A stretch of DNA of 32,499 bases from Gammaproteobacteria bacterium (GTDB taxonomy: Bacteria; Pseudomonadota; Gammaproteobacteria; GRL18), in contig JAPHSW010000044.1 in assembly GCA_026196615.1 (NCBI GenBank), positions 1 to 32,499 of the forward strand. Direction: 5' to 3'. The position numbers and the translations under genes are program-made. The notes beneath the pieces are model-generated. The model worked only from the letters and a program-made list of their open reading frames with translations, searched no databases and was not told the origin of the DNA. Below are positions 4,979 to 29,076 of this stretch, in pieces. Positions within the stretch are counted from its first letter, which is position 1, and each line of letters opens with the position of its first letter.

Positions 4979-6394
4979 TTAATTATTTTTTAAAGCAATC
5001 GTGGGTGTTGTTGTGTTAATAAAAATGATGGCATTAAACTGATCGCTTAAATGAGTATAAGTATAATGAGAATCCATTTCATCGTCTGGCCGATAGACCA
5101 CTCCAACATGACGTTGCAGTCTGGTTTGATTTAATAACTGATAGATTTCTTCAGACTCATGAAGGTCAATCAAAAAATGTGAAATACCCAATGAATGAAA
5201 AAGTGCTTCATTACTATCAGGGTGTGCATTGCGTAATTTTTTTATTTTTGTCGGACTATTCCAGTCATCCGCAGCAGCAACCCCTCCATTATACGTCAAC
5301 ATACCAATAGAAAACATCTTTTCTCCAAAAGTCTGTCGCATCAATTGACCAATGTTAAGTTGATGACTTTTAATCATTTCAGTCACCCGAGCATCACCAA
5401 GATGCGAATTATGTGCCCAGACAATTGTTTTAGGCTGTTTTAAGTGTTTATAAACAGCCAGAAAGGATTCCATCATATGTAAATCACGTTGATTCCAGGA
5501 AGCTGAATCATCACCTGTCTTATATTGAATACGAAAGCTTTTTTCAGTATTTCGAATGATTCGAGCATTTTCCTGCGCATAAAAAAATGCCTCCTTATCA
5601 ATGAATTCATACTCATCAGGACAAGGAAGTCGACAATCAGAAAAATCACGAAATTGTTCAACAGCTGCTAACTCACAACTTAATGCTGGGTTCTTAGCAA
5701 CTGCTTTTCCATAGTGGTGTAAATTGTTATTAAAACGACTAAAACAGGCATAGCGTTGATAAGCCTGTTGAGCAGCCAGAGGAGAAAACATTTGCAGATA
5801 ATCAATAACCGCTTGTTTGGAGCGTTCAAAGCTATAAATATCTATACCATGTAAACTGACCTTTTGCTCTCCTTCCGGCATCTGATCATTATATTTTTTT
5901 AACCACTTGATAAAGTTGAGCATTGCCACATTGCCCCAAAGCCAGGCTCCTTGTGGATTCCTAACTTCTAATGCCTGTCTTGCCGTAATAGGTATTAATG
6001 AGTGAACATATTGATTTATACGGTGAACATTGGGCAAGTCACCTTCAAGTACAATGAGTTTAAAATTTTTTTCCTGTATCAGTTTTTTACTGATATTTAT
6101 TCTTTGTTGATAAAACTCATAAGTACCATGTGTCGAATCTCCAATTAGCACATAAGGTAGTGAGCCTATAAGTTCAAGCATTCTAGTTGAATCATCCAGG
6201 CTGCTTAATGGAACAACAGATTTTTTTAATATAGATATCTGGGAGCCGACTAAAGGTGAAGATGGACTTTGTTGGTTATTTAAAGCGTGTGCTTTAAAAG
6301 AAAGCGCAACAATTAGAAGCAGAGTAAAGCTAAGAAAAAGATCATAACGAACACGCCTGGTTGCTGTCATTTTATTAAGCCTATATTTAAGCAT
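4979..6394 (-). CDS. Erythromycin esterase family protein, exported
   Basis: A 471-residue member of the erythromycin esterase (Ere) family. An N-terminal hydrophobic stretch (about 18-34) ending in KAHA looks like a signal peptide, so the protein should be periplasmic or membrane anchored. Family motifs are present: GDSTHGTYEF with His89, IVLEGD with Glu117, HGIDIYSF near 182-189, a WNQRDLHM segment near 300, and VWAHNSHLGDA with His328 and His331. These correspond to the conserved His/Glu/His residues of the hydrolase site. The usual GE-x-x-HG is GD-x-x-HG here. Many chromosomal relatives have no proven macrolide activity, and the substrate may not be a macrolide. Although ere genes are known as cassettes, this one has no attC. 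A second possible start is Met9. Confidence 0.85.
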   Translation of the reverse strand: MLKYRLNKMTATRRVRYDLFLSFTLLLIVALSFKAHALNNQQSPSSPLVGSQISILKKSVVPLSSLDDSTRMLELIGSLPYVLIGDSTHGTYEFYQQRINISKKLIQEKNFKLIVLEGDLPNVHRINQYVHSLIPITARQALEVRNPQGAWLWGNVAMLNFIKWLKKYNDQMPEGEQKVSLHGIDIYSFERSKQAVIDYLQMFSPLAAQQAYQRYACFSRFNNNLHHYGKAVAKNPALSCELAAVEQFRDFSDCRLPCPDEYEFIDKEAFFYAQENARIIRNTEKSFRIQYKTGDDSASWNQRDLHMMESFLAVYKHLKQPKTIVWAHNSHLGDARVTEMIKSHQLNIGQLMRQTFGEKMFSIGMLTYNGGVAAADDWNSPTKIKKLRNAHPDSNEALFHSLGISHFLIDLHESEEIYQLLNQTRLQRHVGVVYRPDDEMDSHYTYTHLSDQFNAIIFINTTTPTIALKNN

Positions 6395-7556: not shown

Positions 7557-9143
7557 TTAACGCCATGTATGAACACGGTTTCGACCTTTTCTCTTCGCCT
7601 GATACATGGCTTGATCAGCTCTCTCCAGAATCGTATCACACTCTTGACCATGGTCAGGATAAGTCGCAATACCAAGACTGATAGTAATATTAAACTGTCT
7701 ATTGCCTAAATCAAGATTAAAATTATGAGTCTTAATACGCAACCTTTCTGCCAGTTCTTCGGCTTCTTTTAAAGATGTTTCAGGTAAGATGATCACAAAT
7801 TCTTCTCCACCGTATCGAGAAAGAAAATCAGTATTACGAATAGTTTCTTGTAAAAAGTTGGCATATTTTTTCAAAACTCGATCACCAACTGGGTGACCAT
7901 AAGTATCATTAATTTGTTTAAAGTGATCAATATCGATCAAAAAAATGGATAAACTACGCCCATATCGCTCACTCCTGCTCAATTCTTTTTGAAAGTATTT
8001 TTCTAATTCAACTCGATTAAATAAGCCCGTTAGATGATCATGTTTTGCCCTAAACTCCAGTTCTTTTTCCATATTTTTTCGACAGCTAATGTCCTGATGT
8101 GTTCCACAAAGACGTATTGGTTCATGGGTCACACTATCTGATTCAATTAAGGCCCCTGAACCTTGAATCCATACCCAATAACCATCTTTATGTTTCATTC
8201 TAAAATCAGCCACATATGGTGTATTAGTCTTGATAGCATTTTCAATTGTATCAATCATTCGCTGTTTATCATCTGGATGAATACGTATATCCCAATCAGT
8301 GACATTATTTTCTATATCACCACGAGATAAGCCCAATATATCCAACCAACGACTATTAACGATTTGATGTCCTGTCTGGTAATTCCAGTCCCAATATCCA
8401 AGCCCTGCACCAACAATCACATTTTGTAATCGATTTTCAGAATCTAGAATTTTCTGGCGACTTCGTTCCAGCTCTTTTGTTCTTGAGTGAATGAGTTCTT
8501 CACGATGAATAATTTCTTTTCGTAGTTGATTAATTAAAGCTTCATTTTTTAATCTCAATGCTAAAGAATGAATAGTTTGTTTGTTATTATTTCGAGCCAA
8601 AAGCACAAGCATTATAAAATATACAAAAACAGAAGCACTGAGGTAATAATCAACGGCATAATTCAAAGTATGAAGAGAAATGATAAAACAAACAACAATA
8701 GGCAATGTATAAACAACAAAAGCCACTAAAGAAACAGATAGCACTGGTATTGCCGATGCAGTCACACCAAAAAAAACCATTAAAAAAACACCAAAGAGTG
8801 TTAAGTCAGGGTTTACATAGGGTAGTAAAAATAGACTCCCCCAACTGCATCCAACAATCATCGAACCCAGAATATAGTGATTAATCCATTGAGCATCAGG
8901 CCGTAAAACAGGTGTATTTTTTCTTTGATAGCAAAGAAATAAGCGATACACCGCAGCAGCTGTCATTACCAGAGACCAAATAAAATGAAAAGATGAGTTA
9001 GAATAACTACTCAGAATAAAAAAGAAGATAAGTGTAATAAATAAGATTGTTCCATTGGAGGTGAGTGCATGCAGGTATAATGTATCTGCAATTTTTTTAA
9101 GCATTTTTTGTGAATCAACAGATGTCTCATTGATATCTAACAA
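7557..9143 (-). CDS. Membrane PAS-GGDEF diguanylate cyclase
   Basis: A 528-residue sensor. Residues 25-185 hold about six membrane helices forming an integral-membrane sensory domain of the MASE kind. A coiled coil follows (about 195-240), then a PAS_3-type domain with PAC (about 241-356; DIRIHPDD, MKHKDGYWVWIQG), then a GGDEF domain (about 365-528). The active-site loop is GGEEF at 445-449, a catalytically competent variant, and RNTD at 436-439 is an intact inhibitory I-site. It should make c-di-GMP and be product inhibited. It ends 41 bp from the convergent DUF2892-like gene. Confidence 0.92.
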   Translation of the reverse strand: MLDINETSVDSQKMLKKIADTLYLHALTSNGTILFITLIFFFILSSYSNSSFHFIWSLVMTAAAVYRLFLCYQRKNTPVLRPDAQWINHYILGSMIVGCSWGSLFLLPYVNPDLTLFGVFLMVFFGVTASAIPVLSVSLVAFVVYTLPIVVCFIISLHTLNYAVDYYLSASVFVYFIMLVLLARNNNKQTIHSLALRLKNEALINQLRKEIIHREELIHSRTKELERSRQKILDSENRLQNVIVGAGLGYWDWNYQTGHQIVNSRWLDILGLSRGDIENNVTDWDIRIHPDDKQRMIDTIENAIKTNTPYVADFRMKHKDGYWVWIQGSGALIESDSVTHEPIRLCGTHQDISCRKNMEKELEFRAKHDHLTGLFNRVELEKYFQKELSRSERYGRSLSIFLIDIDHFKQINDTYGHPVGDRVLKKYANFLQETIRNTDFLSRYGGEEFVIILPETSLKEAEELAERLRIKTHNFNLDLGNRQFNITISLGIATYPDHGQECDTILERADQAMYQAKRKGRNRVHTWR

Positions 9144-9798
9144 TGGAAGCTCTCAACTAATTTGTGAATATATTTTTTTGCTTACACCTAACCTATTAAT
9201 AATAGTTCATAAAACTTTTAAAATAAACCAGAGGCTATACCCCCTAAAAGTCATTAGCTGTATCAAGCATTAGGTTTTTTAAAAGGTTTCATCATTCAAG
9301 AAATTCAAAAACAAATGATAAAATCAAATTAAATGACATAAAAATTCTATAAAAATTAATAACTTATCTAAGAATAAGTATACCAATATAAATAAAATGA
9401 TTATTAAACAATTCAATAGTCTTTCATAACTTATTAATCTTTGTGCTTTTTTCTTCATAAATAGTCATGAAAGGATAAAGAAAGAACAAACTTGAAAATT
9501 GAATGACTTGTTCAATTACTTTTAATAAATAAAAAGATTTGTTCAAATAAACTCAGTTGAACAAATCGTTCACTTGATTAAATTTTGTACAGCACAGAAA
9601 AGTAAAATGATAAAGATTATCCATCTCATTGTTTTAAAAGTGTTTATTATTTCAGCTATACTCGAAAAGGACATTTTTAAAAATATTGATACGATACTTG
9701 TCAATTGATATTAATGACTTATCACCTGAGGATATGCTTCCGGTCTATACCTTTAGCTAGAAAATGAGTCTTTCTTCCCCCTATTTGGAGTACGTAAA
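9144..9798. other. 655-bp gene-free region
   Basis: AT-rich, with no ORF that I can support. It must hold the divergent promoters of the PAS-GGDEF gene (minus) and the HEAT-repeat gene (plus), but I could not pick a reliable -10/-35 pair. The notable structure is a cluster of TTGTTCAA/TTGAACAA motifs at about 9498-9567. Confidence 0.5.
9536..9567. promoter_or_regulatory. Perfect 11-bp inverted repeat built on TTGAACAA
   Basis: GATTTGTTCAA and TTGAACAAATC flank a 10-nt spacer. Another TTGTTCAA-like site lies just upstream (ATTGAA-N7-TTCAAT at 9498-9516). The repeats sit about 230 bp before the HEAT-repeat gene and 390 bp before the divergent GGDEF gene. With no T-run, a regulator-binding site is more likely than a terminator. 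The regulator is unknown. Confidence 0.4.
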
Positions 9799-12036
9799 TT
9801 GCAGACAATGAGTAATAAAGTCATCAATAGCTTACTAAACTATCTGGAAAATGGTGATGAAGTCGATAGATGCTATGCAGCAAAAACCTTAGGCAACCTG
9901 AAAATAAAAGAAGCGACTAAAGCCTTATTGGAACGTCTCAAAGATGAAGATGTTAATGTTTGTATTGATGCCATCAGTGCACTAGGAAAAATCAAAGAAC
10001 CTTCAGTCCTACCCTCCTTACTCAAATCTCTTGAGAAAAATCCAGATATTGATGTCAAGTTTGCAATCACCGAATCACTTGCTCACTATCAAAGCAAAGA
10101 AGCCATTAACACTCTTCTAAAATTAGCTGAAAAATATCCTAAAGAAATGAATTTTGATCAAAATGAAGACAGCGATAGTTGGTGGGATCTACAAGAAAAA
10201 GCCATTGTCATTTTGGGTGAGATGAAAGTAAAAGCAGCCTATCCCGTATTAAAAAATATTCTTGAAGATGATGTTAGTCAGGACATTGAAGCAATTATTC
10301 TCAAAGCCCTTGCAAAACTTGAAGATCCTGATGCCGACGAATATCTCATTAATCGCATGAATGGGACAGATAATGACAGCACGGAAGTTCAACAAAGAGG
10401 TGCTGCAACCGCCTTAGGTTTCTCAAACACAAAAACTACTCTTCAAGCTCTTGGTCGTTCGTTAGTGAGCAATTCAGCAGATATACGAGAAAATGTACTG
10501 TATGCTTTGGGAAAACGTAAAGCTACACCATACATAAAAGTGGTTGTATTGAGCCTAAGAGATCCTGCTGCCAATGTGAAGCGTGCAGCTCTTCAGGTGC
10601 TGCAAGATTTATCCACAGAACCACAAAGCAATAAGAGATTTAACTTTAATCAGATAGCTATCATGCTCGAAGAACAAGATGCGACTCTTCAAGCTGCCAT
10701 ACTCGCTTTTTTTCAAGAACAACAAAAACTAAACTCTGTCGTTGATAGCCTTTCTGAAGAAAGCCTGCAATTAATCAACCAATGCCTCAAATCAGATAAT
10801 GATAATGTTCTGGCACAAGCTGCTCAACTAGCGAGAATCACTAGTAACCCCAAAAGTGTCGATTTATTATTCAATTTGGCTTCAAACGATGATTGCTCAG
10901 CCTGGGTCAGAAAAGAAGCAATTCTTGCTTTAGGTCAAACACTTGATACAATAAACGATGCCGATGAAAAAAAGAATGCTTTATTAAATTTAAGAGCCTT
11001 AATACAAAATGAAGAACAAGCCGTTCGTTCTTCTACAATACAAGCTCTATTAGATTTATCAAATTCATCCGATATCCAGGAAGAAAGCCTACCTCCTATT
11101 TTAATATTATTAACCACATTAAGAGGAGAACAATTCAATCTTCAGGGAGATGAAGCCTGTGAAACAGGAGATAATACCCACCTGTTCTCTATAGATGAAG
11201 CTCAAAACATCAACTCTACCATATCAACTCTTGAAGCCATTATGTGGAAGAACTTCAGCAAAGGTAAAAAAATAGTCCGATGTAAGATTGATACTTATTC
11301 TGATGCTCGACGTATCTGTGCTCGATTACTAAGTAGCAATACTCAAAAAAAGTACGACGAATTAATTGTTAACGCTTTATCTGAGTGTTTGAATGATGAT
11401 GATGAAAACTTACGAGAAGAAGCAATAGAATCACTTTCAAATATCAGTTTAAAAAACCCATTAGTACCTGGCTTAAATAATATTTTTGGTCAATTAGTCA
11501 CCCTATTAGATAGTAAAAACAGTGATATAAGGCTAGCTTGTATCCATGCCATTGCACATTCAGGTAATCGTGCTGCACTACCACATTTAATCGACTATCT
11601 ATCTGATGAAAATTATCTGGTGCAATTGCACGCCTTGAATGGTCTGGTTTATATCCTAAAAAACAAGGCTAATTTAACCGAAGCTCAACAAATTGAGCAT
11701 ATGACTATCAATAACATCAGCAATGAACAAATTATTGAAGTACTTTTTGATTGCTTACAAGCTAAAAATTACAGCGTCTCTATGGCCACTATAGAAGCTT
11801 TAAGTGATTTACAGCAAAAAAGCGCGATTGAACAAATTATTGATATTGCACTCACAGATGAAGGTCAGTCCGTCAGACATATCTCAGAGTTATTGAAGCG
11901 ACTGGATACTGAGAAAAGTACTGAATTTCTTTTAACACGACTTAATACAATGTCTGACAGCTCCTATAGACGCTATGTTATGGAAATGCTGGAAGTAATC
12001 ATCAGTCCCGATAACGATCACAAAGATGTGGCTTAA
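9799..12036 (+). CDS. Large HEAT-repeat protein
   Basis: A 745-residue protein made almost entirely of HEAT/PBS-lyase-type helical repeats. The pattern A-x-x-AL-x-x-L recurs from about residue 20 to 730, for example AAKTLGNLK, AISALGKIK, EAILALGQT, AIHAIAHSG and HALNGLVYI. There is no signal peptide, membrane segment or catalytic domain. Such solenoids act as protein-binding scaffolds. A break in the repeats near 455-515 (QGDEACETGD, then a basic KGKKIVRCK) may be an inserted loop. The TTG at 9799 is taken as start because GGAG at 9787-9790 is 8 bases away; ATG at 9808 is the alternative. It stands alone, so the partner is not evident. Confidence 0.85.
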   Translation: MQTMSNKVINSLLNYLENGDEVDRCYAAKTLGNLKIKEATKALLERLKDEDVNVCIDAISALGKIKEPSVLPSLLKSLEKNPDIDVKFAITESLAHYQSKEAINTLLKLAEKYPKEMNFDQNEDSDSWWDLQEKAIVILGEMKVKAAYPVLKNILEDDVSQDIEAIILKALAKLEDPDADEYLINRMNGTDNDSTEVQQRGAATALGFSNTKTTLQALGRSLVSNSADIRENVLYALGKRKATPYIKVVVLSLRDPAANVKRAALQVLQDLSTEPQSNKRFNFNQIAIMLEEQDATLQAAILAFFQEQQKLNSVVDSLSEESLQLINQCLKSDNDNVLAQAAQLARITSNPKSVDLLFNLASNDDCSAWVRKEAILALGQTLDTINDADEKKNALLNLRALIQNEEQAVRSSTIQALLDLSNSSDIQEESLPPILILLTTLRGEQFNLQGDEACETGDNTHLFSIDEAQNINSTISTLEAIMWKNFSKGKKIVRCKIDTYSDARRICARLLSSNTQKKYDELIVNALSECLNDDDENLREEAIESLSNISLKNPLVPGLNNIFGQLVTLLDSKNSDIRLACIHAIAHSGNRAALPHLIDYLSDENYLVQLHALNGLVYILKNKANLTEAQQIEHMTINNISNEQIIEVLFDCLQAKNYSVSMATIEALSDLQQKSAIEQIIDIALTDEGQSVRHISELLKRLDTEKSTEFLLTRLNTMSDSSYRRYVMEMLEVIISPDNDHKDVA

Positions 12037-12081
12037 TTTTCTACAGTTTTTTTGATTAACAAATTAACAATCACGCTCTAA

Positions 12082-12325
12082 TACAAGTTAGGAATTACTG
12101 AATCTTATATTTATACAGCAAAAGTGCATGATTTGAGCTTAAAAAAATGGAAGGTTCTTTACCAGAACAATTCAAGAAGAAGATGAACTTGAACGACAAA
12201 TAGATATTCATGCATCCTTAACTTCTAAGGACTTATCCATCAATATAGGCTCTTATTTAATTCGGGTCGAGCAAGTCTGTGAGAAAGAAAATCTTGGCAC
12301 TTTAGAAAAGCACTTCAATCAGTGA
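12082..12325 (+). pseudogene. Possible frameshifted small gene
   Basis: Two overlapping open frames look like parts of one protein. Frame 1 (12082-12186) reads LGITESYIYTAKVHDLSLKK and onward to a stop at 12184. Frame 2 (12143-12325) continues as EEDELERQIDIHASL through to EKHFNQ and a stop at 12323. A single indel near 12150-12180 would fuse them into about 80 residues. Neither frame has a good start codon. The composition looks coding and helical, but I do not recognise the family. It lies 45 bp after the HEAT-repeat gene and may be a decayed partner of it. The alternative is chance open frames in non-coding DNA. Confidence 0.3.
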
Positions 12326-12333
12326 TAAAATGA

Positions 12334-13743
12334 TTAAACTTCTTTACATGCATTATATTTAACCACACGATTTCGGCCTTCTTTTTTCGCAGTATATAAA
12401 GCTTGATCTGCATGTGAAACCATTTCATCTAATGTTGAATATTTGTCATTATTGCGTTCTGATAAACCAAAGCTAGCAGTCACAGAACCCACCGATGAGA
12501 ATGAATAATTTTGAATCAAAATTCTTAATTTTTCAGCCAAAACAAAAGCATCATTTAAGTTCGTTTTAGGAGAAATAATAATAAATTCTTCTCCTCCCCA
12601 ACGACCAAGAATATCCGTTTTACGAATATGTTCTCTTAGTATCATAGAAAACTCAATTAAAACTTGATCCCCGGCCTGATGTCCATATTCATCATTCACA
12701 CGTTTAAAAAAGTCAATATCAACAATCATAATACTATACATTTGCTTATATCGTTTATATAAGGCTTCTTGTTGTTCTAAAATTTCATCCAGTTTTACAC
12801 GATTATAAATTTGTGTCAGTTTATCTGTGACGGAAATAATTTCTAATTTTGAATTATATTTTTTAAGTAAAAAATTGCGATACAGAAGAAATGAAAGTAT
12901 AACAGCTAAAGCAACTACCCATTTCCATAAACGACCATAATCAACTACTTTTTCATAACGTATAGCTAACCATTGATTTAATATATTCTGCTTTTGTTTT
13001 TCAGAAATATCTTCAATGGACTTTTCAAAAATACTATACAATAGAGGCTCATCATTTCTGGTGGCAATTCCTAACTCCCACTTATCATCAAACTTTCCAA
13101 TAATTTTTAGTTCTCCAACAAAGTTACGTTGAAACTCATAACCAATCGTTACTAAGGTACCAATAAAACCATATAATTCCCCATGATTTACCATTTCTAA
13201 ACCTTGATGAAGAGAGTCAACATCAACGAAAGTCATTTCAGGATGTTTTTCACGTAAAATTTCACCAAAAGCATAACCTCGGACAACGCCTAGTTTTTTA
13301 TTTTTTAGTGTTGAAAAGTCTGCAATGAAATATTGATCTGTTTTAGCCGCTACAACCAGAGGAATTGAAAGATAGGGTTTTGTGAAATTCATATAATTTT
13401 TTCGTTCTTCAGTTTCCATTGCAAGAGAATAAATATCACACTTTCTTGCTTTAGCAAACTCAATCGATTCAACCCATGAAGTAGTAGGTTGTAGAACAAT
13501 GGGGATACCAATTTTTTGTTCTAATATGGCAATATATTCAGCAGTCATTCCAATATGTTCACCCTTATCAATTTTTTCAAAGGGCATCCAGTCCGGATCA
13601 ACACACACTTTCACTTGTTTCTTTTCTTTAAGGTATGAAAGCTCATCATCTGTTAGCTCTATTTCTGAATTAATAGATGAAATAACATTACTGCTATAAA
13701 CAGTAAAAAAAATGATAAGTAAAGATACAACTAAATTATTCAT
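12334..13743 (-). CDS. Periplasmic solute-binding domain fused to GGDEF
   Basis: A 469-residue protein. A signal/anchor (about 1-22) is followed by a family-3 solute-binding (SBP_bac_3) domain from about 43 to 262 with VCVDPDWMPFE, GMTAEY and LGVVRGYAFG motifs. Then come one membrane helix (about 272-290) and a GGDEF domain (about 300-465). GGEEF lies at 383-387 and the I-site RKTD at 374-377, so an active, feedback-controlled diguanylate cyclase is expected. A small ligand, probably an amino acid or similar, would be sensed in the periplasm. Its start overlaps the stop of the preceding GGDEF-EAL gene by 8 bp, so the two are translationally coupled. Confidence 0.93.
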   Translation of the reverse strand: MNNLVVSLLIIFFTVYSSNVISSINSEIELTDDELSYLKEKKQVKVCVDPDWMPFEKIDKGEHIGMTAEYIAILEQKIGIPIVLQPTTSWVESIEFAKARKCDIYSLAMETEERKNYMNFTKPYLSIPLVVAAKTDQYFIADFSTLKNKKLGVVRGYAFGEILREKHPEMTFVDVDSLHQGLEMVNHGELYGFIGTLVTIGYEFQRNFVGELKIIGKFDDKWELGIATRNDEPLLYSIFEKSIEDISEKQKQNILNQWLAIRYEKVVDYGRLWKWVVALAVILSFLLYRNFLLKKYNSKLEIISVTDKLTQIYNRVKLDEILEQQEALYKRYKQMYSIMIVDIDFFKRVNDEYGHQAGDQVLIEFSMILREHIRKTDILGRWGGEEFIIISPKTNLNDAFVLAEKLRILIQNYSFSSVGSVTASFGLSERNNDKYSTLDEMVSHADQALYTAKKEGRNRVVKYNACKEV

Positions 13744-16237
13744 TACTTAATATACCACGATTACTCTTTAATAATTTAATGAAGTCATTGATAGGTACTG
13801 GTTTAGAAAAATAATAACCTTGAAACAATTGACAGTCATGAGAAAGTAAAAAATCCAACTGCTCTTTAGTTTCAACACCTTCTGCAATAACTTCTAAGCC
13901 AAGGTGTCTTGCCATTACAATTATAGTTTCAACAATAGCATCGTCATTTTTATCTTTAGTCACATCACGTATAAAAGACTGATCAATTTTCAACATATTG
14001 ACAGGTAATGATTTCAAATATGATAATGATGAATATCCTGTACCAAAATCATCAATAGAAAAATTAATTCCCATGTCTTGCATTTTTTTCATTTTATCTG
14101 AAAAAGATGAAAAGTTTCCAACCAAAGATTGTTCTGTTACTTCCAATTCAATATATTTTGCTTCAACATTATACTTATCTAACAAAGAGATAACTTCATC
14201 CAAATAATCCTTTCGACCAAATTGCCAGGGGCTTACATTGATAGCAATACCTTTAAATGAATCAGAAGTATTATTTTTTAGAATATTATTTAAATGTTGG
14301 AGCGCAAGTTCCATAACAGATTTACCTAAAGCATGAACCAAACCAGATTCTTCTGCAATAGGAATAAACTCAGCAGGTGAAATAAAACCTTTTTCAGGAT
14401 GATTCCAACGCACTAAAACTTCTGCCGAAATAATAGTATTACTTTCATTGTATTGTGGTTGTAAATGAATGGTCAGTTGCTTTTCTGTTATTGCAACACG
14501 TAAATCATTTTGCAAACTTAAACGATGTTCTAAAAGTAATTGCATATGTGAGGCAAATAATTTTACTGTATTTTTTCCTTCATCTTTTGCCTGATACATT
14601 GCAATATCTGCATATTTTATGATGTCATGACTGTCTCTGTCTTTTTCCGGAAACATGACAACACCAATACTACAACTAATTTGGTGCTTCTCTTCTCCCA
14701 GTTCATAATATTCCTGTAAAAGCTTCAGTGTTTTATAAGCAATATTCTGCGCATAATTTGAAGCGGAAACAATATTATCACCTAAACTACACAAAAGGAG
14801 AACAAACTCATCACCTCCCAGACGGCAAGCAAGATCTTCTTTACGTATGAGTGAATTCAACCGTATTGCCACTTCTTTGAGTAGTAAATCCCCCATTTGA
14901 TGTCCACGACTATCATTGATTGTCTTAAAATCATCTAAATCAATAAAAAGCAATGCTCCATGATCATTGTGGCGATTGCAACGAGAAATTTCCTGATCTA
15001 ATCGTTCCATCAATAAACGTCGATTAGATAAACCAGTCAATGGATCAAACAATGATAAATGATAAGCTTCTTTTTTTGCATGGATCTGTTCACTCATATC
15101 ATGAACAATAAAAATAATCATTCCTTTTTCTGATCGATTTTCATGTTCATAATCCAGAACGGATGTATGTCCCTGAAAATATTTAATTTCATTATTAATT
15201 TCTAATTCATAGTCAATAACTTTAGACTCATTACTCTCTAAAGTCTGAGCAATAGTCTTCATCACTTTTGTTGATACTTCTAAGGGTAGAATATCAGTCA
15301 GCCTTTTTCCAAGCAAAAATTCTTTATTTTGGAAAAGTAATCGATCATTGTTACCAAATATTTCAATATACTCCCCATCTTCATCCAGGATGAATGCGAG
15401 TTCTGGCATTGCATTAATAAAAGCACACAGTAATGCATGTTGTTCCTGTAAATCTTTTTTACTTTGAATAGCTTCAAGTTCAGCCTTTGCCTGCTTAAAC
15501 ATTTTTTGAGAAATAATTTCAGACATATGATTTAATCCACTCACAAGTTCTGTTATTTCATCATTATCATTATTTTTTTCAGACCATATCTTCATATCAC
15601 CATTCTTAATTGATTTTATTTGTAGCAAAGCTCGTTCAATACGTTTGACAAAATAATTTGAAAATAAAAAGCCAGCAATAAGAGCGATACTGAGTACAAT
15701 AAAAAAAGCTTTTATGACAACATCTTTATATTCATTTAATCGTGAATAAAGTTTGTCATGTTCTAATACAACAAATATGCCCAGGTCCCACTGAGGCATT
15801 TTTTTATAAAAATAAACCCATTGGTCATCACGAATTCTATTACTATCCTTTGGATGTTTAATTATCGCTAAATGTTTTTTACGAAGTAAGTTTTTATCAA
15901 CAATGTTATCTCCAATCGTAGAAAAGACAATTTTGGCCTCTCTATCTAATAGTATGACAATTCCTTTTTCATTTTTATATTGTGAACTGAGATCAATTTC
16001 AAGCTGACTTAATAATTTCAGATAATAGCCTTTAACATCCTGTAAGCCATGCTTTTTTAATGTATCATATTCTTGACTGATACGCAGCTGTACATGTTCC
16101 AAATCATTTTGTATGACATTACTATTTAAGTCATAAATAATATCTTTTATCGTGTTAATACTAATGAACATACTTATGACTGCTGTTGTCGTCACCAACA
16201 CAATTGTAAACAAGCTGAGTTTAGGTAATAATTTCAT
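13736..16237 (-). CDS. Membrane Cache-like/HAMP/PAS/GGDEF/EAL c-di-GMP enzyme
   Basis: An 833-residue protein. TM1 is about 8-27, a periplasmic sensor of about 145 residues resembles a Cache fold, and TM2 is about 174-194. Then come HAMP (to about 248), a PAS domain (about 268-385), GGDEF (about 395-560) and EAL (about 572-833). GGDEF is canonical at 474-478 with I-site RKED at 465-468. The EAL domain has EVL-V-RW at 606, VTE, DDFGTGYSS (729 onward), the EGVE loop and QGY, so the phosphodiesterase residues are present as well. The protein may switch between making and breaking c-di-GMP. I prefer the ATG at 16237, 5 bp after the upstream stop, because it begins a typical signal-anchor; a longer start at 16300 would overlap the upstream gene. 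Confidence 0.93.
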   Translation of the reverse strand: MKLLPKLSLFTIVLVTTTAVISMFISINTIKDIIYDLNSNVIQNDLEHVQLRISQEYDTLKKHGLQDVKGYYLKLLSQLEIDLSSQYKNEKGIVILLDREAKIVFSTIGDNIVDKNLLRKKHLAIIKHPKDSNRIRDDQWVYFYKKMPQWDLGIFVVLEHDKLYSRLNEYKDVVIKAFFIVLSIALIAGFLFSNYFVKRIERALLQIKSIKNGDMKIWSEKNNDNDEITELVSGLNHMSEIISQKMFKQAKAELEAIQSKKDLQEQHALLCAFINAMPELAFILDEDGEYIEIFGNNDRLLFQNKEFLLGKRLTDILPLEVSTKVMKTIAQTLESNESKVIDYELEINNEIKYFQGHTSVLDYEHENRSEKGMIIFIVHDMSEQIHAKKEAYHLSLFDPLTGLSNRRLLMERLDQEISRCNRHNDHGALLFIDLDDFKTINDSRGHQMGDLLLKEVAIRLNSLIRKEDLACRLGGDEFVLLLCSLGDNIVSASNYAQNIAYKTLKLLQEYYELGEEKHQISCSIGVVMFPEKDRDSHDIIKYADIAMYQAKDEGKNTVKLFASHMQLLLEHRLSLQNDLRVAITEKQLTIHLQPQYNESNTIISAEVLVRWNHPEKGFISPAEFIPIAEESGLVHALGKSVMELALQHLNNILKNNTSDSFKGIAINVSPWQFGRKDYLDEVISLLDKYNVEAKYIELEVTEQSLVGNFSSFSDKMKKMQDMGINFSIDDFGTGYSSLSYLKSLPVNMLKIDQSFIRDVTKDKNDDAIVETIIVMARHLGLEVIAEGVETKEQLDFLLSHDCQLFQGYYFSKPVPINDFIKLLKSNRGILSNE

Positions 16238-16241
16238 TCCC

Positions 16242-17240
16242 CTAATTCTTCCATCGGTAGGACTCAGCATTACGTAAGAAATCAATGTCAAAAAGAACAT
16301 CCAGTTGATCCGCTAAATCTAAATTAACCGTCAAATTGACCTGTTGATTCTGCCGGATGGGTATTGAATTCGGAGTCTCTCCTTGCAAAATTCTGATTGC
16401 TGTTTTGGCAGCATATTCTCCCTGTTCTTCAGGTACATGTACAAAACCAAGTAATACATAAGGAATCATCACTTCCTGAATCGTACCCGTTGGTATTCGA
16501 GTATTACTCATAATAAATTGATGCATTTCATCTTTATTCCAATTTTTAACACTCATGCTATTTTGAATAATAAGCATGTCAACTTCGTCTTGTAACAATA
16601 GATAAGCTTCACGCCACTGCTCTGAATTGTCAACAAAGATTTTTTTATTAAAAACAATACCCATTTTATTAATAAAGTTTTTGACATTAGTCTGATCACT
16701 GAGTGCTTTACCCGATAAAATACCTAAGCGATTACCATGAGCATGACGTGCAAGTTCTTTTGGTAGCGATTCAATAAGCTGAATTTCTTCCATCCCTGTC
16801 GCATTGTCATAGGGATAACCATAAACTGAGACATCCCAATTAATTCCACAAAAAACAATAGGAAGTTCTACATTTTTAAAATAAGGTTCAATTAAATATT
16901 TACTGGCATTATCATCTGCAGCAATCACTAAATCAGGTTTCCATATTTCTATTTTTTCTTTTGCTTTTAATGCACTTTTTTTTATAAATTCTATATCCCT
17001 GTTCCGTTTCGTATCCATGGAATAAACTTCCATCTCAATACCTTTACGCTCAAGAACAGAGCGAGCTCCAGCAACAATACCGGCTGACCAGGCATATTCC
17101 TGATGATATGAATCAATAAATAAAATACGTTTAGACTGAAGTTCATCGTCCGCTGATTGAACAATAAGGGGAAGGTTGAAACTAAAAAAAATGGCAATCA
17201 GTATAAAAAAGTGGGGAGTACTGAATGTTCGCCTATACAT
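16242..17240 (-). CDS. Periplasmic ABC-type substrate-binding protein (ABC_sub_bind family)
   Basis: A 332-residue exported protein. A signal peptide (about 1-29, ending in VQSA) precedes two alpha/beta lobes of the ABC_sub_bind (PF04392-like) type. The first has KRILFIDSYHQEYAW and PDLVIAADDNASKY, the second GNRLGILSGKALSDQ and a GFVHVPEEQGEYAAKTA segment near the end. No permease or ATPase gene is adjacent. Instead the gene is the first of a three-gene unit with two c-di-GMP enzymes (next start 5 bp away). I infer that it delivers a ligand signal to the sensor domain of its neighbour rather than feeding a transporter. The ligand is unknown. Confidence 0.88.
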   Translation of the reverse strand: MYRRTFSTPHFFILIAIFFSFNLPLIVQSADDELQSKRILFIDSYHQEYAWSAGIVAGARSVLERKGIEMEVYSMDTKRNRDIEFIKKSALKAKEKIEIWKPDLVIAADDNASKYLIEPYFKNVELPIVFCGINWDVSVYGYPYDNATGMEEIQLIESLPKELARHAHGNRLGILSGKALSDQTNVKNFINKMGIVFNKKIFVDNSEQWREAYLLLQDEVDMLIIQNSMSVKNWNKDEMHQFIMSNTRIPTGTIQEVMIPYVLLGFVHVPEEQGEYAAKTAIRILQGETPNSIPIRQNQQVNLTVNLDLADQLDVLFDIDFLRNAESYRWKN

Positions 17241-23635: not shown

Positions 23636-24154
23636 ATGAAACCTAAGATACAACCACTAGATATTGAACGAAAGCTGCCCGAAAACTCCTATATTGTGTC
23701 AAAAACCGATCTAAAAGGTAAGATTACCTACGCCAACCGCATTTTTATGGATATGGCATGTTATTCTGAAAGTGAATTATTGGGTGTACAACATAATATT
23801 ATCCGCCATCCCGACATGCCCAGAGGTGCATTTAAATTTGTCTGGGATACTATCGCCCAAGGCAAAGAAGTCTTTGCCTATGTAAAAAATCTTGCAAAAG
23901 ATGGACATTATTATTGGGTGCTTGCCAATATCACTCCTGACAGAGATATCAATGGGAACATCATTGGTTATCTCTCCGTCCGAAGAAAACCCAGCAGTCA
24001 AGCCATAGCCACAATTGAACCTATTTATCAGCAAATGTTGGATATTGAAAAACAACACCATGCAAAAGATCAAATGGATTATTCTATCGGTTTCTTAGTT
24101 GATGCATTAAATAGTCAGGGGGTGAGCTATGAAGAATTTATCCTTTCAATCTAA
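23636..24154 (+). CDS. Aer/CetB-like PAS domain protein
   Basis: A 172-residue soluble protein with one PAS domain (about 15-130) of the Aer/CetB redox type: [19 protein letters not shown], then [14 protein letters not shown], then [19 protein letters not shown] and GYLSVRRKP. In E. coli Aer this fold binds FAD and senses redox state. The C-terminal part (130-172) is a short helical tail with no membrane segment or signalling domain. Its last 26 bases overlap the start of the chemoreceptor gene, so the two products are made together. I infer that it passes its signal to that receptor, as CetB does to CetA. Confidence 0.88.
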
Positions 24155-25577
24155 ATTAAAGTTTATGATTCATGGTTTTAACTTCCTGATTTTTACTCTT
24201 TTACTAACAACTTTTGTTCAACATGGTTTTAACATCTGGTATTTAGGATTTTGGCTTGTTGCCAGTGCTTATGGTATTTATTCTTTATTATTGATAAAAA
24301 AACCATTTCAAATGATGGACAACATCACTCAAATTATGAGTGAAGCAAGCGATGGTCAGTTTGGACGTCGTATTACCAATGTGAGCCCTGAAAAAGAACT
24401 GTATGATATGTCATGGCATATCAATGATATGCTTGATCAAATTGAACCTTTCTTTCGAGAAGTCAATACCACATTTAATTATGCAGCTGAAGGGAGTTTT
24501 TTTAGAAAAGCTCAGCCCGAAGGTTTACATGGTGATTTTAAAACTTCTCTATCACATATTAATGATACACTTCAAATTATGGAAGACAATATCGCTTACG
24601 TTAATCGCAATGATTTACTATCACGATTAAGCGAGCTAAATATTAGGAAAATGCTCAGTAATTTAAAATTAAATCAACAGGATATGATGGATATTACTGA
24701 GCAAATGTCGATTGTTGTCAATATTGCAAAATCCAATACTGAAGAAGTAACTGAAGCACAACAGGCTTTAGTTCATATAGTTAAAGTACTGGAGGGTGTT
24801 ATGACTCGCGTTGACACTACCAGTGATGCCATTGAACAGCTCAATGAACGCAGTGTACGAATGAATGATGTCATTACAATGATCGCCGGCATTGCAGAAC
24901 AGACTAATCTTTTAGCACTTAATGCCGCCATTGAGGCCGCACGTGCTGGCGAACAAGGTCGAGGCTTTGCAGTCGTTGCCGATGAGGTACGCACACTGGC
25001 AGCTAATACTAAAAATGCAACTGATGAAATTACCAGTTTAATAGCCAGTATTACTACAGACACCAAGAAAATGTTAACCGACTCTGCCCAAATGCGTGAA
25101 ATGACCAATGAATCTCAAAGTGAGATTAATGATTTTGAGAAAAAATTTACAGATTTTTCTAAATCAACTCACACTACACTAAAAAAAATAACTTATGCCC
25201 AACAAGTCAACTTTGCATCGTTGGTTAAAATCGATCATATGGTCTTTAAGCAAAATGGATATATGGCCATTAGCAAGGGTCATGATTCTGAGGAGGCTTT
25301 AGCTGTAAAAGTTGACCATAATAGTTGCCGCCTGGGTAAATGGTATTATGATGGCGATGGACAAAAAAACTTCAACGAAACCAGTGCATTTAAAAAATTA
25401 GAATCACCTCATGCTCAGGTTCACAATTCAATCCATCAAGTCATTGAATTAATCAGTAACGATTGGGAAAAAAATAAAGAACTCAAAGATCAAATTATTC
25501 AGGCTTTTGAATCTGCGGAAGATGCCAGTGATCAGGTGATGGTATTTCTTGATCAAATGGTTCAGGAAAAACAATGA
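24129..25577 (+). CDS. Membrane chemoreceptor with C-terminal CZB zinc-binding domain
   Basis: A 482-residue methyl-accepting chemotaxis protein without a periplasmic sensor. Two close membrane segments (about 17-30 and 36-56) form a hairpin, then a HAMP-like region (about 57-160), then the signalling domain with the hairpin tip [34 protein letters not shown] at 255-288. Near the C-terminus is a CZB domain with His370, His397, Cys400 ([13 protein letters not shown]), His428 and His432, matching the 3His/1Cys zinc site of that family. AGGGGG precedes the ATG by 8 bases. The architecture resembles CetA plus CZB. It should respond through the PAS partner and possibly to zinc or oxidants. Confidence 0.92.
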
Positions 25578-25611: not shown

Positions 25612-25959
25612 CTATACAAAAAGCTGTCTGGCAGCCTCAATATTCAAAGCAGTTTTAAACGGGGGAGACTCATTAATACAGCGTGATAATCCATAAGCAG
25701 CAGAAGGTTTCATATGAATGACAATTAACTCAGTATTATTTAACTTACAGAGTGTGTTCAGATATTTTAACCATTCATAGTAGGTTTTATCGATTAAAGA
25801 AATACTTTTTAAATCATAAATAAGCCCCTTTGTTCGATTTTTTTGTAAAAAACGAATCACCCCTGAAGCATATTGTTCAGGGTTAGATGGATCAAGACTT
25901 ACTCCTGGTTCAAATAAAACACACTGTCTGGACAGTATGGTTAAGTGTACATCTTGCAT
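25612..25959 (-). CDS. RsbS-like STAS domain protein
   Basis: A 115-residue single STAS domain. It is the last gene of the stressosome-like operon, starting in a TAATG overlap with the stop of the RsbR-like gene. The central strand-loop GLIYDLKSISLIDK aligns with the RsbS region that carries the phosphorylated Ser, but here the residue after Asp57 is Lys58, followed by Thr59. The usual phosphoserine is therefore replaced, and only Thr59 could serve. In known systems RsbS scaffolds RsbR and holds RsbT. Whether this protein is phosphorylated is doubtful. It could also be a general STAS scaffold. Confidence 0.7.
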   Translation of the reverse strand: MQDVHLTILSRQCVLFEPGVSLDPSNPEQYASGVIRFLQKNRTKGLIYDLKSISLIDKTYYEWLKYLNTLCKLNNTELIVIHMKPSAAYGLSRCINESPPFKTALNIEAARQLFV

Positions 25960-26843
25960 TATGAACCCTTACTAGAAACAACAATGTTAAGATGACGAAA
26001 TGCTTCCTTTAAACCTTCTGATAGAGTTGCTCTGGTTACAACATCCCCCAGGTCTATATTTAAATTAGTCAACGCTCTTGCAATTTCTGGTCGAATTCCC
26101 GTGATTATTGGCGTTGCCCCCATTAATTTGACAGCACGCATCATTTGAATCAAATGATGTGCAACTTGAGAATCAATTGTAACCACTCCAGTCACATCAA
26201 TAACCACCATACGAGAACGTTCACTTTCAATTCGTTGTAATAGTTTCTCCATAACAACCATTGTTCTGGATGAATCAAGACTACCAATAATAGGTAAAGT
26301 TAATACACCATCCCAAATTTCAGTAATCGGCGTAGAAGTCTGTAATAGTTCTTCTTGTTGCGCCTTAATGGTAAACTCCTTTTCACCAAGATAGATCTCA
26401 AAAACATGTAGGGTCATATCATTAAACAAAGAAGCCATCATTAATAGAACTTCACGGTATTGAGCCATGGTCATTGATGTATCATCTTGCAAACCTTCGA
26501 TTAAACTGGTTTGCAAAAAATGCATATATGAAACAAAGAGATCCATAGTACCACCACGAATCTGGATTTCTTCTGAACAGTTATTAAAAAATGAAATCAG
26601 CGCTTTGTACTCATGAGAATTTTTGTTTGACTCAATATTTGCCCCATCCTGAGTTTGTAAAATTGCAACAAATAGCTCTAGAAATTCAATGGAATAATCC
26701 TCAATTTCTTCCCCCGAAAGTAGGCTATTATTACCAAAAGCATCTGCTCCTTTGGTTTCAATAAGTGATGTAATATTGCCAATATTTAACTTTAGATTTT
26801 CAATCAGCAATTCAGATGTAGATATTTTTTTCTTTCTAGCCAT
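25959..26843 (-). CDS. RsbR-like stressosome sensor protein
   Basis: A 294-residue protein. The N-terminal sensor domain (about 1-165) is helical, ends in a linker helix, and has no recognisable haem or LOV motif. The C-terminal STAS domain (about 172-285) is clearly RsbR-like: TPITEIWDGVLTLPIIGSLD, VVIDVTGVVTID, VAHHLIQMMRAV, then GIRPEIARALTNLNIDL. The two Thr phosphorylated in Bacillus RsbR are replaced by Ser188 (IGSLD) and Ser225 (IDSQVAHH), which are still phosphorylatable. Coupled to the RsbS-like gene by TAATG and preceded by the RsbT-RsbX fusion 40 bp upstream. Confidence 0.85.
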   Translation of the reverse strand: MARKKKISTSELLIENLKLNIGNITSLIETKGADAFGNNSLLSGEEIEDYSIEFLELFVAILQTQDGANIESNKNSHEYKALISFFNNCSEEIQIRGGTMDLFVSYMHFLQTSLIEGLQDDTSMTMAQYREVLLMMASLFNDMTLHVFEIYLGEKEFTIKAQQEELLQTSTPITEIWDGVLTLPIIGSLDSSRTMVVMEKLLQRIESERSRMVVIDVTGVVTIDSQVAHHLIQMMRAVKLMGATPIITGIRPEIARALTNLNIDLGDVVTRATLSEGLKEAFRHLNIVVSSKGS

Positions 26844-26883
26844 AGATACCTCGAATACATTATTATATTTTATTATTTCGACG

Positions 26884-28008
26884 TTAAAGTCGTTTCAAAG
26901 CGATAATAGACTGATCGTCACTGCTTCTACCTTTTTTATTACCCAGGAAAAAACAAATCAGCTGTGGATGTTTATCCCACAGCACTGAAAAATCTTTCAA
27001 TTTCCAATTTCTTCGAATACCATCTGAGGCACTGAATATTACTTCACCGGTTTTTAATTCAAATTTTTGCCTGCTATAACTACGGGAAGCACTACCTAGA
27101 ATTCCTGAACAGACTTTGAGCTCTTTTAATTGAGATTTCTCTAACTGTTTATCTGAAGATTGAACAATTCTAAATAAACGCATATCACCTACAGCACAGT
27201 ACTCCCCTTCACCAACTTCTGAATTATATTTAAGAGCAACCACTGCTGCACCAGCAGTCGTTGCTAATGTCCTTTGTGTAATATCAAGCATTTTTTCAAC
27301 ATTATGCACATGGATATCTGTTTTTATTGTTCTGACTTTTTGGGCAATTTTTTCAGCTTCTGGACCATGCCCTGTTGCATCTAAATGCAAACAACTCATT
27401 TTATTTTCATTCAGATTCAACCAAAGGTCATCACCATTTTGCGCCATATCATGATAAGCCCTGCAAAACATGCCATATTGATAAGCATCTATTTTCTCTT
27501 TTTGAGAACGGTAAAAACGTGCCCAACAAGCAACACCATGCCAAACATTTTTATCTGTTGATGTTTCTGTAATAGTAAACAGGTCAGATTCATCGGCCAT
27601 ACGACTAATTGAGCCCAAGCCCTTTCCCATTGTTTTTGATGTGGTAAAACCATCCTTATAAGCTTTATCTACATCTTTAATACCTGGTCCATAATCCATT
27701 GCGAAGATATCAATTGTTACTGGCGCTGGTGATTGTCTATTCCCTTTTCTATCACTTCGTTTTTCATTCGTTTTTCGCTCACTTTGAAAGCGTTCTCCAT
27801 TAGGCCTTTCACCATGAAACCAAAGTTGCACCATTCCTGTCTTATTTGAATATTTAACCTGATTTGACAGCATTTCACTGGCAACAATTTGCATATTTTC
27901 AATACTAATTGGATCAAAGCCTAATTTTTTGGCAAGTGTTTTCAAACGCACTTTAAATAATACCAAGCTACTTTCATCTTTAACGACTTGTTGTATTGAA
28001 AGCTTCAT
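26884..28008 (-). CDS. RsbT-like kinase fused to RsbX-like PP2C phosphatase
   Basis: A 374-residue two-domain protein. Residues 1-165 are a GHKL ATPase of RsbT type: the N box has E45 and N49, the G1 box is D105-YGPG, and DGFTTSKTMGKGLGSISRM (119-137) resembles the RsbT lid. A charged, Arg/Lys/Glu-rich insert (about 67-95) separates two core strands. Residues 172-374 are a PP2C/SpoIIE-type phosphatase: GDD (192-194), LDATGHG (209-215), GDMRLF, SASDG (326-330) and DDQS (364-367) give the metal-binding Asp set. The protein should both phosphorylate and dephosphorylate the STAS partners encoded next to it. Fusions of this kind occur in Gram-negative genomes, but I know of no detailed study. Confidence 0.88.
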   Translation of the reverse strand: MKLSIQQVVKDESSLVLFKVRLKTLAKKLGFDPISIENMQIVASEMLSNQVKYSNKTGMVQLWFHGERPNGERFQSERKTNEKRSDRKGNRQSPAPVTIDIFAMDYGPGIKDVDKAYKDGFTTSKTMGKGLGSISRMADESDLFTITETSTDKNVWHGVACWARFYRSQKEKIDAYQYGMFCRAYHDMAQNGDDLWLNLNENKMSCLHLDATGHGPEAEKIAQKVRTIKTDIHVHNVEKMLDITQRTLATTAGAAVVALKYNSEVGEGEYCAVGDMRLFRIVQSSDKQLEKSQLKELKVCSGILGSASRSYSRQKFELKTGEVIFSASDGIRRNWKLKDFSVLWDKHPQLICFFLGNKKGRSSDDQSIIALKRL

Positions 28009-28044
28009 TACATTAATATCCCAAATTTGTAATTAAGAAAGGTA

Positions 28045-29076
28045 TTAGTTTGGTACATTTTCTAATTCATGATCAATAACAATCTGACCTCGCCCTCTTT
28101 CTTTAGCTTCATATAGTGCTTCATCTGTGCGTGAAATTAATGATTCAACCGTATCATCAGCTCTTAATAAAGCAATACCAATACTGACTTTATTATCCAT
28201 GCTCTGTAATATTTTTTCTGCAGAGCGATGAGCAAATTCTGTCTCCGCAAAACAAATAACTGCAAATTCATCACCGCCCATGCGACAAACATGGTCAACA
28301 TCTTTTCGTGTAAACTGAGTCATAAACTTTGCCATATTTTTCAACACTTCATCACCTGCCTGATGCCCCAGGTTATCATTTACCTCTTTAAAATAATCAA
28401 GATCAAGCATTATTAGAGACAAGGGATTACCTTGTCTTTGACAATACTTTACGCCATCTTCTAAACGTCGGTCATAGGCGCCTCGATTATAGATTTGAGT
28501 CAGACTGTCAATTTCAGCTGCACGAATACTTTCTTGCAATTGAGAACGTTTAGCATCCAGTTTTTGTTCCAGTTGTAATAATTCCTGTGCAGCACGTTCT
28601 TTGGCGGCATTCATTTCAAGACGGATACTTTCATTATGTTGACGAAGTAATTCCGGATCGCTGACTTCACTTTCCAAACGTAACATCTCTCTGATTTCTT
28701 CTATACGTTCTTCAGAGGGTTGCTCAGATAACGACAATAAAAATTCATCCTGAGTACAATTTAAGCTGCTATTTTGAACTCTATCACAAGTACCTAAATA
28801 AAGTTTATTAGCCTGAAGGACAAGTTGTAAATTTGAATATTCAGCTTCAGAACCTTGTGTCTTTGAAATATTCTCAAGCATTGCTGGTAACTTTGCAGCT
28901 CCGACAAACGGACTAACATTAAGCATCTCAAGACATTTCATAACAAATTGTATAAATCGTTGTTTATCAGGCTCCACAAAAAAAGGAAGCTTTAAAAGAA
29001 GCATGGATTTCACACCTAATGAGTCATTAGGTTCAGAAGCAGTAGTTGATGTCGTTAGTAATGGGGTGCTGGACAT
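28045..29076 (-). CDS. Cytoplasmic diguanylate cyclase of the stressosome operon
   Basis: A 343-residue soluble protein and first gene of the operon. An N-terminal region (about 20-140) of unknown fold has no membrane segment. A long Glu/Arg-rich coiled coil (about 140-188) leads into GGDEF (about 188-335). The catalytic loop is canonical GGDEF at 267-271. The position of the inhibitory RxxD holds KDVD (258-261), so product inhibition may be weak. I infer that it is the output of the RsbR/S/T-like proteins encoded downstream (36-bp gap). Control might be through the N-terminal region binding the RsbT-like domain. Confidence 0.9.
   Translation of the reverse strand: MSSTPLLTTSTTASEPNDSLGVKSMLLLKLPFFVEPDKQRFIQFVMKCLEMLNVSPFVGAAKLPAMLENISKTQGSEAEYSNLQLVLQANKLYLGTCDRVQNSSLNCTQDEFLLSLSEQPSEERIEEIREMLRLESEVSDPELLRQHNESIRLEMNAAKERAAQELLQLEQKLDAKRSQLQESIRAAEIDSLTQIYNRGAYDRRLEDGVKYCQRQGNPLSLIMLDLDYFKEVNDNLGHQAGDEVLKNMAKFMTQFTRKDVDHVCRMGGDEFAVICFAETEFAHRSAEKILQSMDNKVSIGIALLRADDTVESLISRTDEALYEAKERGRGQIVIDHELENVPN

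Follow-up and report, generated by a model that had tools for sequence, protein, structure and literature searches.

A conserved four-gene stressosome-like module of a gammaproteobacterium with a dedicated diguanylate cyclase and an RsbS-like protein lacking the phosphorylatable serine

The stretch of DNA analyzed here (the window; 32,499 nucleotides, contig JAPHSW010000044.1 of the Gammaproteobacteria bacterium assembly GCA_026196615.1) carries an operon of four genes on the minus strand which encode, in the order of transcription, a diguanylate cyclase (DGC), a fusion of an RsbT-type kinase with an RsbX-type phosphatase (TX), an RsbR-like protein (R), and an RsbS-like protein (S*). We consider it rather probable that they form a stressosome-type partner-switch module dedicated to this one cyclase, in which phosphorylation would be confined to R, S* would be a constant scaffold, and TX would act on the DGC. 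The evidence for this reading is drawn from sequence: gene content and order, conservation of the module, intact catalytic sites, the pattern of phosphosites kept and lost, and a DGC domain found only with the module. The order of the four genes and the coupling of the last two through TAATG, both claimed in an original prediction made from this DNA, turned out to be correct. As also claimed there, no sigma or anti-sigma factor gene and no RsbU gene is found among the neighbors of the operon; moreover, no protein with an RsbU_N domain is encoded anywhere in the 5-Mb genome, which answers the alternative, raised in the same prediction, that an unlinked RsbU pathway is the actual target.

The survey of operon conservation that had been suggested was performed with TX as the query in a sample of 369 genomes from this class, plus a sample of the phylum. 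The module was present in 16 of the 369 genomes, representing 12 families, and in one further family of the phylum sample (G589), and wherever the locus was not truncated at the end of a contig its order was DGC-TX-R-S. Beyond the family of the host the flanks share almost nothing (two loci have two neighbors in common), and at one locus (L047) 4-bp gene overlaps occur at all three junctions. The DGC is a constant member of the module, and the recurrence of the four-gene unit, given how often the genes occur together within the class, is beyond chance. An apparent fusion of the DGC and TX genes (594 aa) at L003/L027 was discarded, as the reading frame passes through a string of N in the assembly.

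The DGC gave a Pfam GGDEF match with an E value of 7.9e-37, and the residues by which an active cyclase would be recognized (the GGDEF motif, D225, and N233) were invariant in 22/22 relatives, while the inhibitory I-site RxxD is noncanonical, with R257 four residues before D261 and not three. An AlphaFold2 model (mean pLDDT, 87) predicts an N-terminal alpha/beta domain, a helical stalk, and the GGDEF domain. The N-terminal domain belongs to no Pfam family, and E16, F38, and L66 are its only nearly invariant residues in the family alignment. A separate search for this domain retrieved 14 of 274 genomes, with one copy each, and all 14 carry the operon; in the sampled genomes this regulatory domain is thus exclusive to the module. 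Since it was found only with the module, the DGC is very probably the module's output. The original proposal of a stressosome-like module without a sigma-B branch and with a DGC, its constant and specific part, as the likely output therefore stands, but not as a novelty, since cyclic di-GMP (c-di-GMP) is an established stressosome output for Moorella MtT/MtG (cited in PMC4976288, PMC12143880, PMC7647112). The beta-alpha-alpha-beta-beta order of the N-terminal domain raised the idea of a degenerate RsbT/GHKL half-domain, which we rejected for lack of profile support (hhalign probability, ~0.1%); the whole-model Foldseek search, in which SiaD (7e6g) was the top match, listed only GGDEF matches, so the idea was judged by profiles and not structurally.

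TX comprises an RsbT-type kinase (approximately residues 1 to 150) and a PP2C/SpoIIE phosphatase (approximately 176 to 374; Pfam SpoIIE, E = 1.5e-6). Its T domain aligned with stand-alone RsbT with an hhalign probability of 99.8 (E = 2e-28), and its X domain profile matched best a Moorella phosphatase (3zt9; 8e-21) and also RsbX (3w40; 3e-12). The kinase residues E45, N49, D105, G107, G109, G128, G130, and G132 (N-box and G-boxes) and the metal-binding residues D193, D210, D329, D364, and D365 of the phosphatase are invariant in the family, so that TX would supply both the RsbT-type GHKL serine kinase and the RsbX-type feedback phosphatase of a stressosome. Because both sets of catalytic motifs are invariant, substrates for them must exist.

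R has the build of a stressosome RsbR, an N-terminal helical sensor of the RsbRD_N type (detected in 18/22 family members) and a C-terminal STAS domain (E = 7.7e-14) bearing two phosphosites. The top Foldseek match of its predicted structure was RsbR of the Listeria stressosome (7b0u; E = 3e-13), with 290 columns aligned and both domains covered, and the R clade is monophyletic (100/100). A heme-globin sensor was ruled out by the RsbRD_N-like character of the N-terminal domain. The phosphosites were fixed by the Vibrio vulnificus numbering (PMC9237108) plus alignment, which also eliminated "IAQT/IARA" as a candidate for the equivalent of RsbR Thr205. Since both of these sites are kept in R while S* has none, the T and X domains are left with R as their single conserved target of the customary type.

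S* itself gave only a STAS match under the Pfam cutoff (E = 1.4e-3), and its identity was settled by profiles: its best match among solved structures was RsbS (1.3e-8), not the SpoIIAA-type antagonists, and the comparison with canonical RsbS gave an hhalign probability of 97.6 (E = 5e-12), at 18% identity in the profile alignment. At the position of the phosphorylated Ser59 of RsbS, S* has Lys58, and among the 23 family members this residue is K in six, Q, E, or R in three each, T or P in two each, and H, N, A, or D in one each, but Ser in none. The following residue likewise shows no conserved hydroxyl residue. What is conserved is a YYxW motif (Y60 and W63 each in 19/20), with which begins the helix bearing the phosphosite in RsbS. 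The Bacillus subtilis rows of our alignments are what we take to be the RsbS and RsbR sequences; the former agrees with the compared stretch of 6jhk, and no conclusion depends on the latter. The name "RsbS-like" given in the original prediction is thus right by descent, while the absence of the defining phospho-serine had gone unnoticed. In RsbS, Ser59 is the usual site of phosphorylation (PMC6760441); to judge from its sequence S* cannot be phosphorylated at this canonical site, and the classical switch, in which RsbS is phosphorylated and RsbT released, therefore cannot run as described.

The loss of Ser59 appears to go together with the fusion of the kinase to the phosphatase. T-X fusions are common elsewhere, mostly alongside a separate RsbT, and in modules with a separate RsbT position 59 of RsbS is Ser or Thr in 30 of 31 cases. 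Where the fusion is the only RsbT, no RsbS has Ser59, either in the family described here (with the two Thr already counted) or in the five such modules checked outside it, namely, four that belong to a different class within the phylum (L081, L082, L085, and L086, with Q, Y, Y, and Y) and a PAS-type R-S-TX-histidine kinase module (L084, with a Leu assigned by eye). Two genomes (G049 and G105) with S* loci (L042 and L034) also carry a second, canonical module which keeps the Ser (L057 and L058). In the R tree, this family and the other-class loci form separate clades (100/100 and 98/94), the placement of L084 being uncertain. The survey is small and its rows are not independent; it points to at least two, and probably three, origins of Ser59 loss with a sole T-X fusion, and it suggests a general rule for fusion-only modules. 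We tentatively propose, at just below an even chance, a class of stressosomes whose RsbS by nature cannot be phosphorylated and whose kinase occurs solely in fusion with the phosphatase, so that all switching takes place on RsbR and the entire T-X protein, not free RsbT, serves as the messenger, the Ser59 loss and the fusion having coevolved in at least two and probably three lineages. That the fusion would limit the release of the kinase by itself, as suggested earlier, is plausible, and the fused protein could be released whole.

In the mechanism that we favor, R and S* would assemble into a core holding the bifunctional TX via its RsbT domain. A stimulus sensed by the RsbRD_N-type domain would lead the T domain to phosphorylate R at Ser191/Ser225, upon which TX would switch partner and act on the module-specific N-terminal domain or the stalk of the DGC, changing the c-di-GMP output; the X domain would reset the switch by dephosphorylating R, and S* would serve as a fixed docking or scaffold subunit, not as the switch. 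Precedent comes from Moorella, where an RsbT-type kinase acts on a GGDEF protein (PMC4976288, PMC7647112, PMC12143880). There, the kinase MtT binds the DGC MtG and reportedly attenuates it (PMC7647112), and by analogy inhibition of the DGC by TX may be as likely as activation. Several observations weigh against this mechanism. The four-helix RsbU_N domain, the known docking domain for RsbT and the mark of its output partners RsbU and MtG, was not found in the DGC or its family, and profile comparisons of the DGC N-terminal domain revealed no similarity to RsbT or STAS and no detectable relative, so that the contact between TX and the DGC is a putative one. In addition, since the equivalent change in Listeria RsbS (S56A) abolished signaling (PMC8942246), a core with a natural loss of Ser59 must work differently or not assemble.

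The R, S*, and TX proteins might also constitute a small STAS-based switch without a megadalton stressosome, which they would resemble by ancestry only. The divergence of S* from canonical RsbS is consistent with such a switch, which is compatible with the signaling logic set out above, but R has retained the complete build of an RsbR, and the match of its model to the solved Listeria stressosome subunit extends over the two domains; we regard this as possible, though doubtful. The main rival is that S* acts as the messenger, being freed from an R/TX complex in an amount set by the phosphorylation of R and then binding to and activating the DGC at its stalk or N-terminal domain, in parallel with HsbA-HsbD, BgrV-BgrR, and SiaC-SiaD. 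The best solved match of the DGC model is indeed SiaD, whose long stalk binds its activator SiaC, the aromatic motif of S* is conserved, and the S* gene always accompanies the DGC gene. However, the SiaD match covers mostly the GGDEF domain and a generic stalk, the S* profile is nearest to RsbS and not to SpoIIAA-type antagonists, and the HsbA/BgrV systems switch by phosphorylation of the small STAS protein (PMC8457831), for which S* has no site; we regard this rival as unlikely. We find it harder still to believe that TX modifies the DGC directly, with T phosphorylating it on Ser/Thr, X removing the phosphate, and R and S* doing no more than tuning the balance between kinase and phosphatase: both TX active sites are kept, a bifunctional enzyme would suit a reversible modification, and one paper words the downstream cyclase of Moorella as a phosphorylation target (PMC4976288), but RsbT-type kinases otherwise take STAS proteins as substrates and no conserved Ser/Thr was found in the family alignment of the DGC N-terminal domain. 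That the DGC is merely cotranscribed and has its own signal, with TX, R, and S* serving another target such as an HsbR/HsbA-like system elsewhere in the genome (which does have a separate locus with a response regulator-PP2C-HATPase and a STAS protein), is very improbable, as the four-gene unit persists in 12 families although its surroundings are unrelated and the DGC N-terminal domain was never found without the TX, R, and S* genes.

Stressosomes with a c-di-GMP output and kinase-phosphatase fusions are both already known. The MtR-MtS-MtT-MtX/MtG system of Moorella thermoacetica likewise has RsbR, RsbS, RsbT, and RsbX homologues which control a GGDEF protein without a sigma factor, and its phosphatase is the best match of the X domain here; it differs in having T and X as two proteins, an MtS that undergoes phosphorylation (Ser58), and RsbU_N and GAF domains in MtG, whereas the present module has T joined to X, a phospho-dead S*, and, as the first gene of the operon, a DGC whose N-terminal domain is unrelated. 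The rsbRSTX loci of the Vibrio type (Heinz et al. 2022, PMC9237108) are Gram-negative minimal stressosomes without RsbU/sigma-B and with the output gene in the operon, the output being c-di-GMP (proposed for Vibrio, Chromobacterium, and Herbaspirillum loci) or a two-component system; they differ in a heme globin sensor in R, the order R-S-T-X followed by the output, a separate T, and an RsbS that is the usual phosphorylated antagonist. The R-S-T-[T-X]-histidine kinase modules of Pseudomonadota and others (Paraburkholderia, Xanthomonas, Variovorax, and Halobaculum among them) share an RsbT-SpoIIE fusion of ~340 aa, with both active sites intact in the whole-genome examples examined, but have an extra stand-alone RsbT, an RsbS with Ser/Thr59, and no dedicated DGC with this N-terminal domain. 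The R-S-TX-(GGDEF) modules L081, L082, L085, and L086 and the histidine kinase module L084 resemble the present one in having the fusion as sole kinase and an RsbS without Ser59, and differ in their canonical gene order, separate R clade, and other GGDEF or kinase outputs. Finally, in HsbR-HsbA-HsbD and SiaABCD of Pseudomonas aeruginosa and BgrUWV-BgrR of Sinorhizobium meliloti a partner-switch phosphatase/kinase and a small antagonist control a DGC, but the small antagonist is the phosphorylated switch and there is no RsbR-type sensor subunit. Searches of the accessible literature yielded no description of the conserved arrangement, a phospho-dead RsbS together with a DGC domain of its own, whose priority is not fully established.

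The coordinates of the operon and of other features of the window are listed in Table 1. Within the operon, 36 bp separate the DGC gene from TX and 40 bp separate TX from R. A divergent MATE transporter gene lies upstream and a convergent chemoreceptor gene downstream; the genes for a PAS protein and for this chemoreceptor, which has a CZB zinc-binding domain, converge on the operon at 23636 to 25577, an association not kept even in near relatives. A promoter scan of the operon gave nothing above the shuffle background, and the terminator-like sites listed fall within genes; neither was used. The genome has a second partner-switch locus, separate from the operon (L117, contig C20, 1227 to 3289), with genes for an HsbA-like STAS protein, a 577-aa response regulator-PP2C-HATPase protein, and an Hpt-like protein, in this order. 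The window contains another c-di-GMP cluster (7557 to 17240, all on the minus strand) and, at 9799 to 12036, a gene for a 745-aa protein with HEAT repeats nearly throughout. An erythromycin esterase family protein is encoded at 4979 to 6394 (PF05139; E = 2e-98); the family includes resistance enzymes plus many members without an assigned function. On the minus strand at 2135 to 2423 there are Rfam matches to group II intron domains D1 to D4 (121.8 and 48.8 bits), downstream of which only short open reading frames (119 to 200 aa) are found, with no search aimed at a reverse transcriptase made; the intron may be degraded.

Table 1. Features of the operon and of the second c-di-GMP cluster in the window
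Feature	Position	Strand	Remark
DGC, diguanylate cyclase, first gene of operon	28045-29076	-	343 aa
DGC module-specific N-terminal domain, residues 20-118	28723-29019	-	predicted beta-alpha-alpha-beta-beta-beta
DGC GGDEF active-site motif, residues 267-271	28264-28278	-	invariant in 22/22 relatives
TX, RsbT-RsbX fusion	26884-28008	-	374 aa
R, RsbR-like co-antagonist	25959-26843	-	294 aa
R Ser191 codon (LDSSR)	26271-26273	-	Ser in 22/22; corresponds to Thr171 of B. subtilis RsbR and Ser199 of V. vulnificus
R Ser225 codon (IDSQV)	26169-26171	-	Ser/Thr in 22/22; corresponds to Thr205 of B. subtilis RsbR and Thr233 of V. vulnificus
TAATG, R stop codon overlapping S* start codon	25957-25961	-	direct reading of sequence
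S*, RsbS-like STAS protein	25612-25959	-	115 aa
S* Lys58 codon, RsbS Ser59 position	25786-25788	-	followed by conserved aromatic motif Y60-Y61-x-W63
PAS-GGDEF	7557-9143	-	
SBP_bac_3-GGDEF	12334-13743	-	
GGDEF-EAL	13736-16300	-	
ABC-type substrate-binding protein	16242-17240	-	

The accepted stressosome switch depends on the phosphorylation of RsbS, and a conserved family without the residue in question is thus a natural experiment. Such a family separates the role of RsbR phosphorylation from that of RsbS and raises the question of whether a kinase has to be released in the first place. As read here, the module would link a stress sensor to c-di-GMP by a compact path of four genes, and the regulatory domain of its DGC is new.

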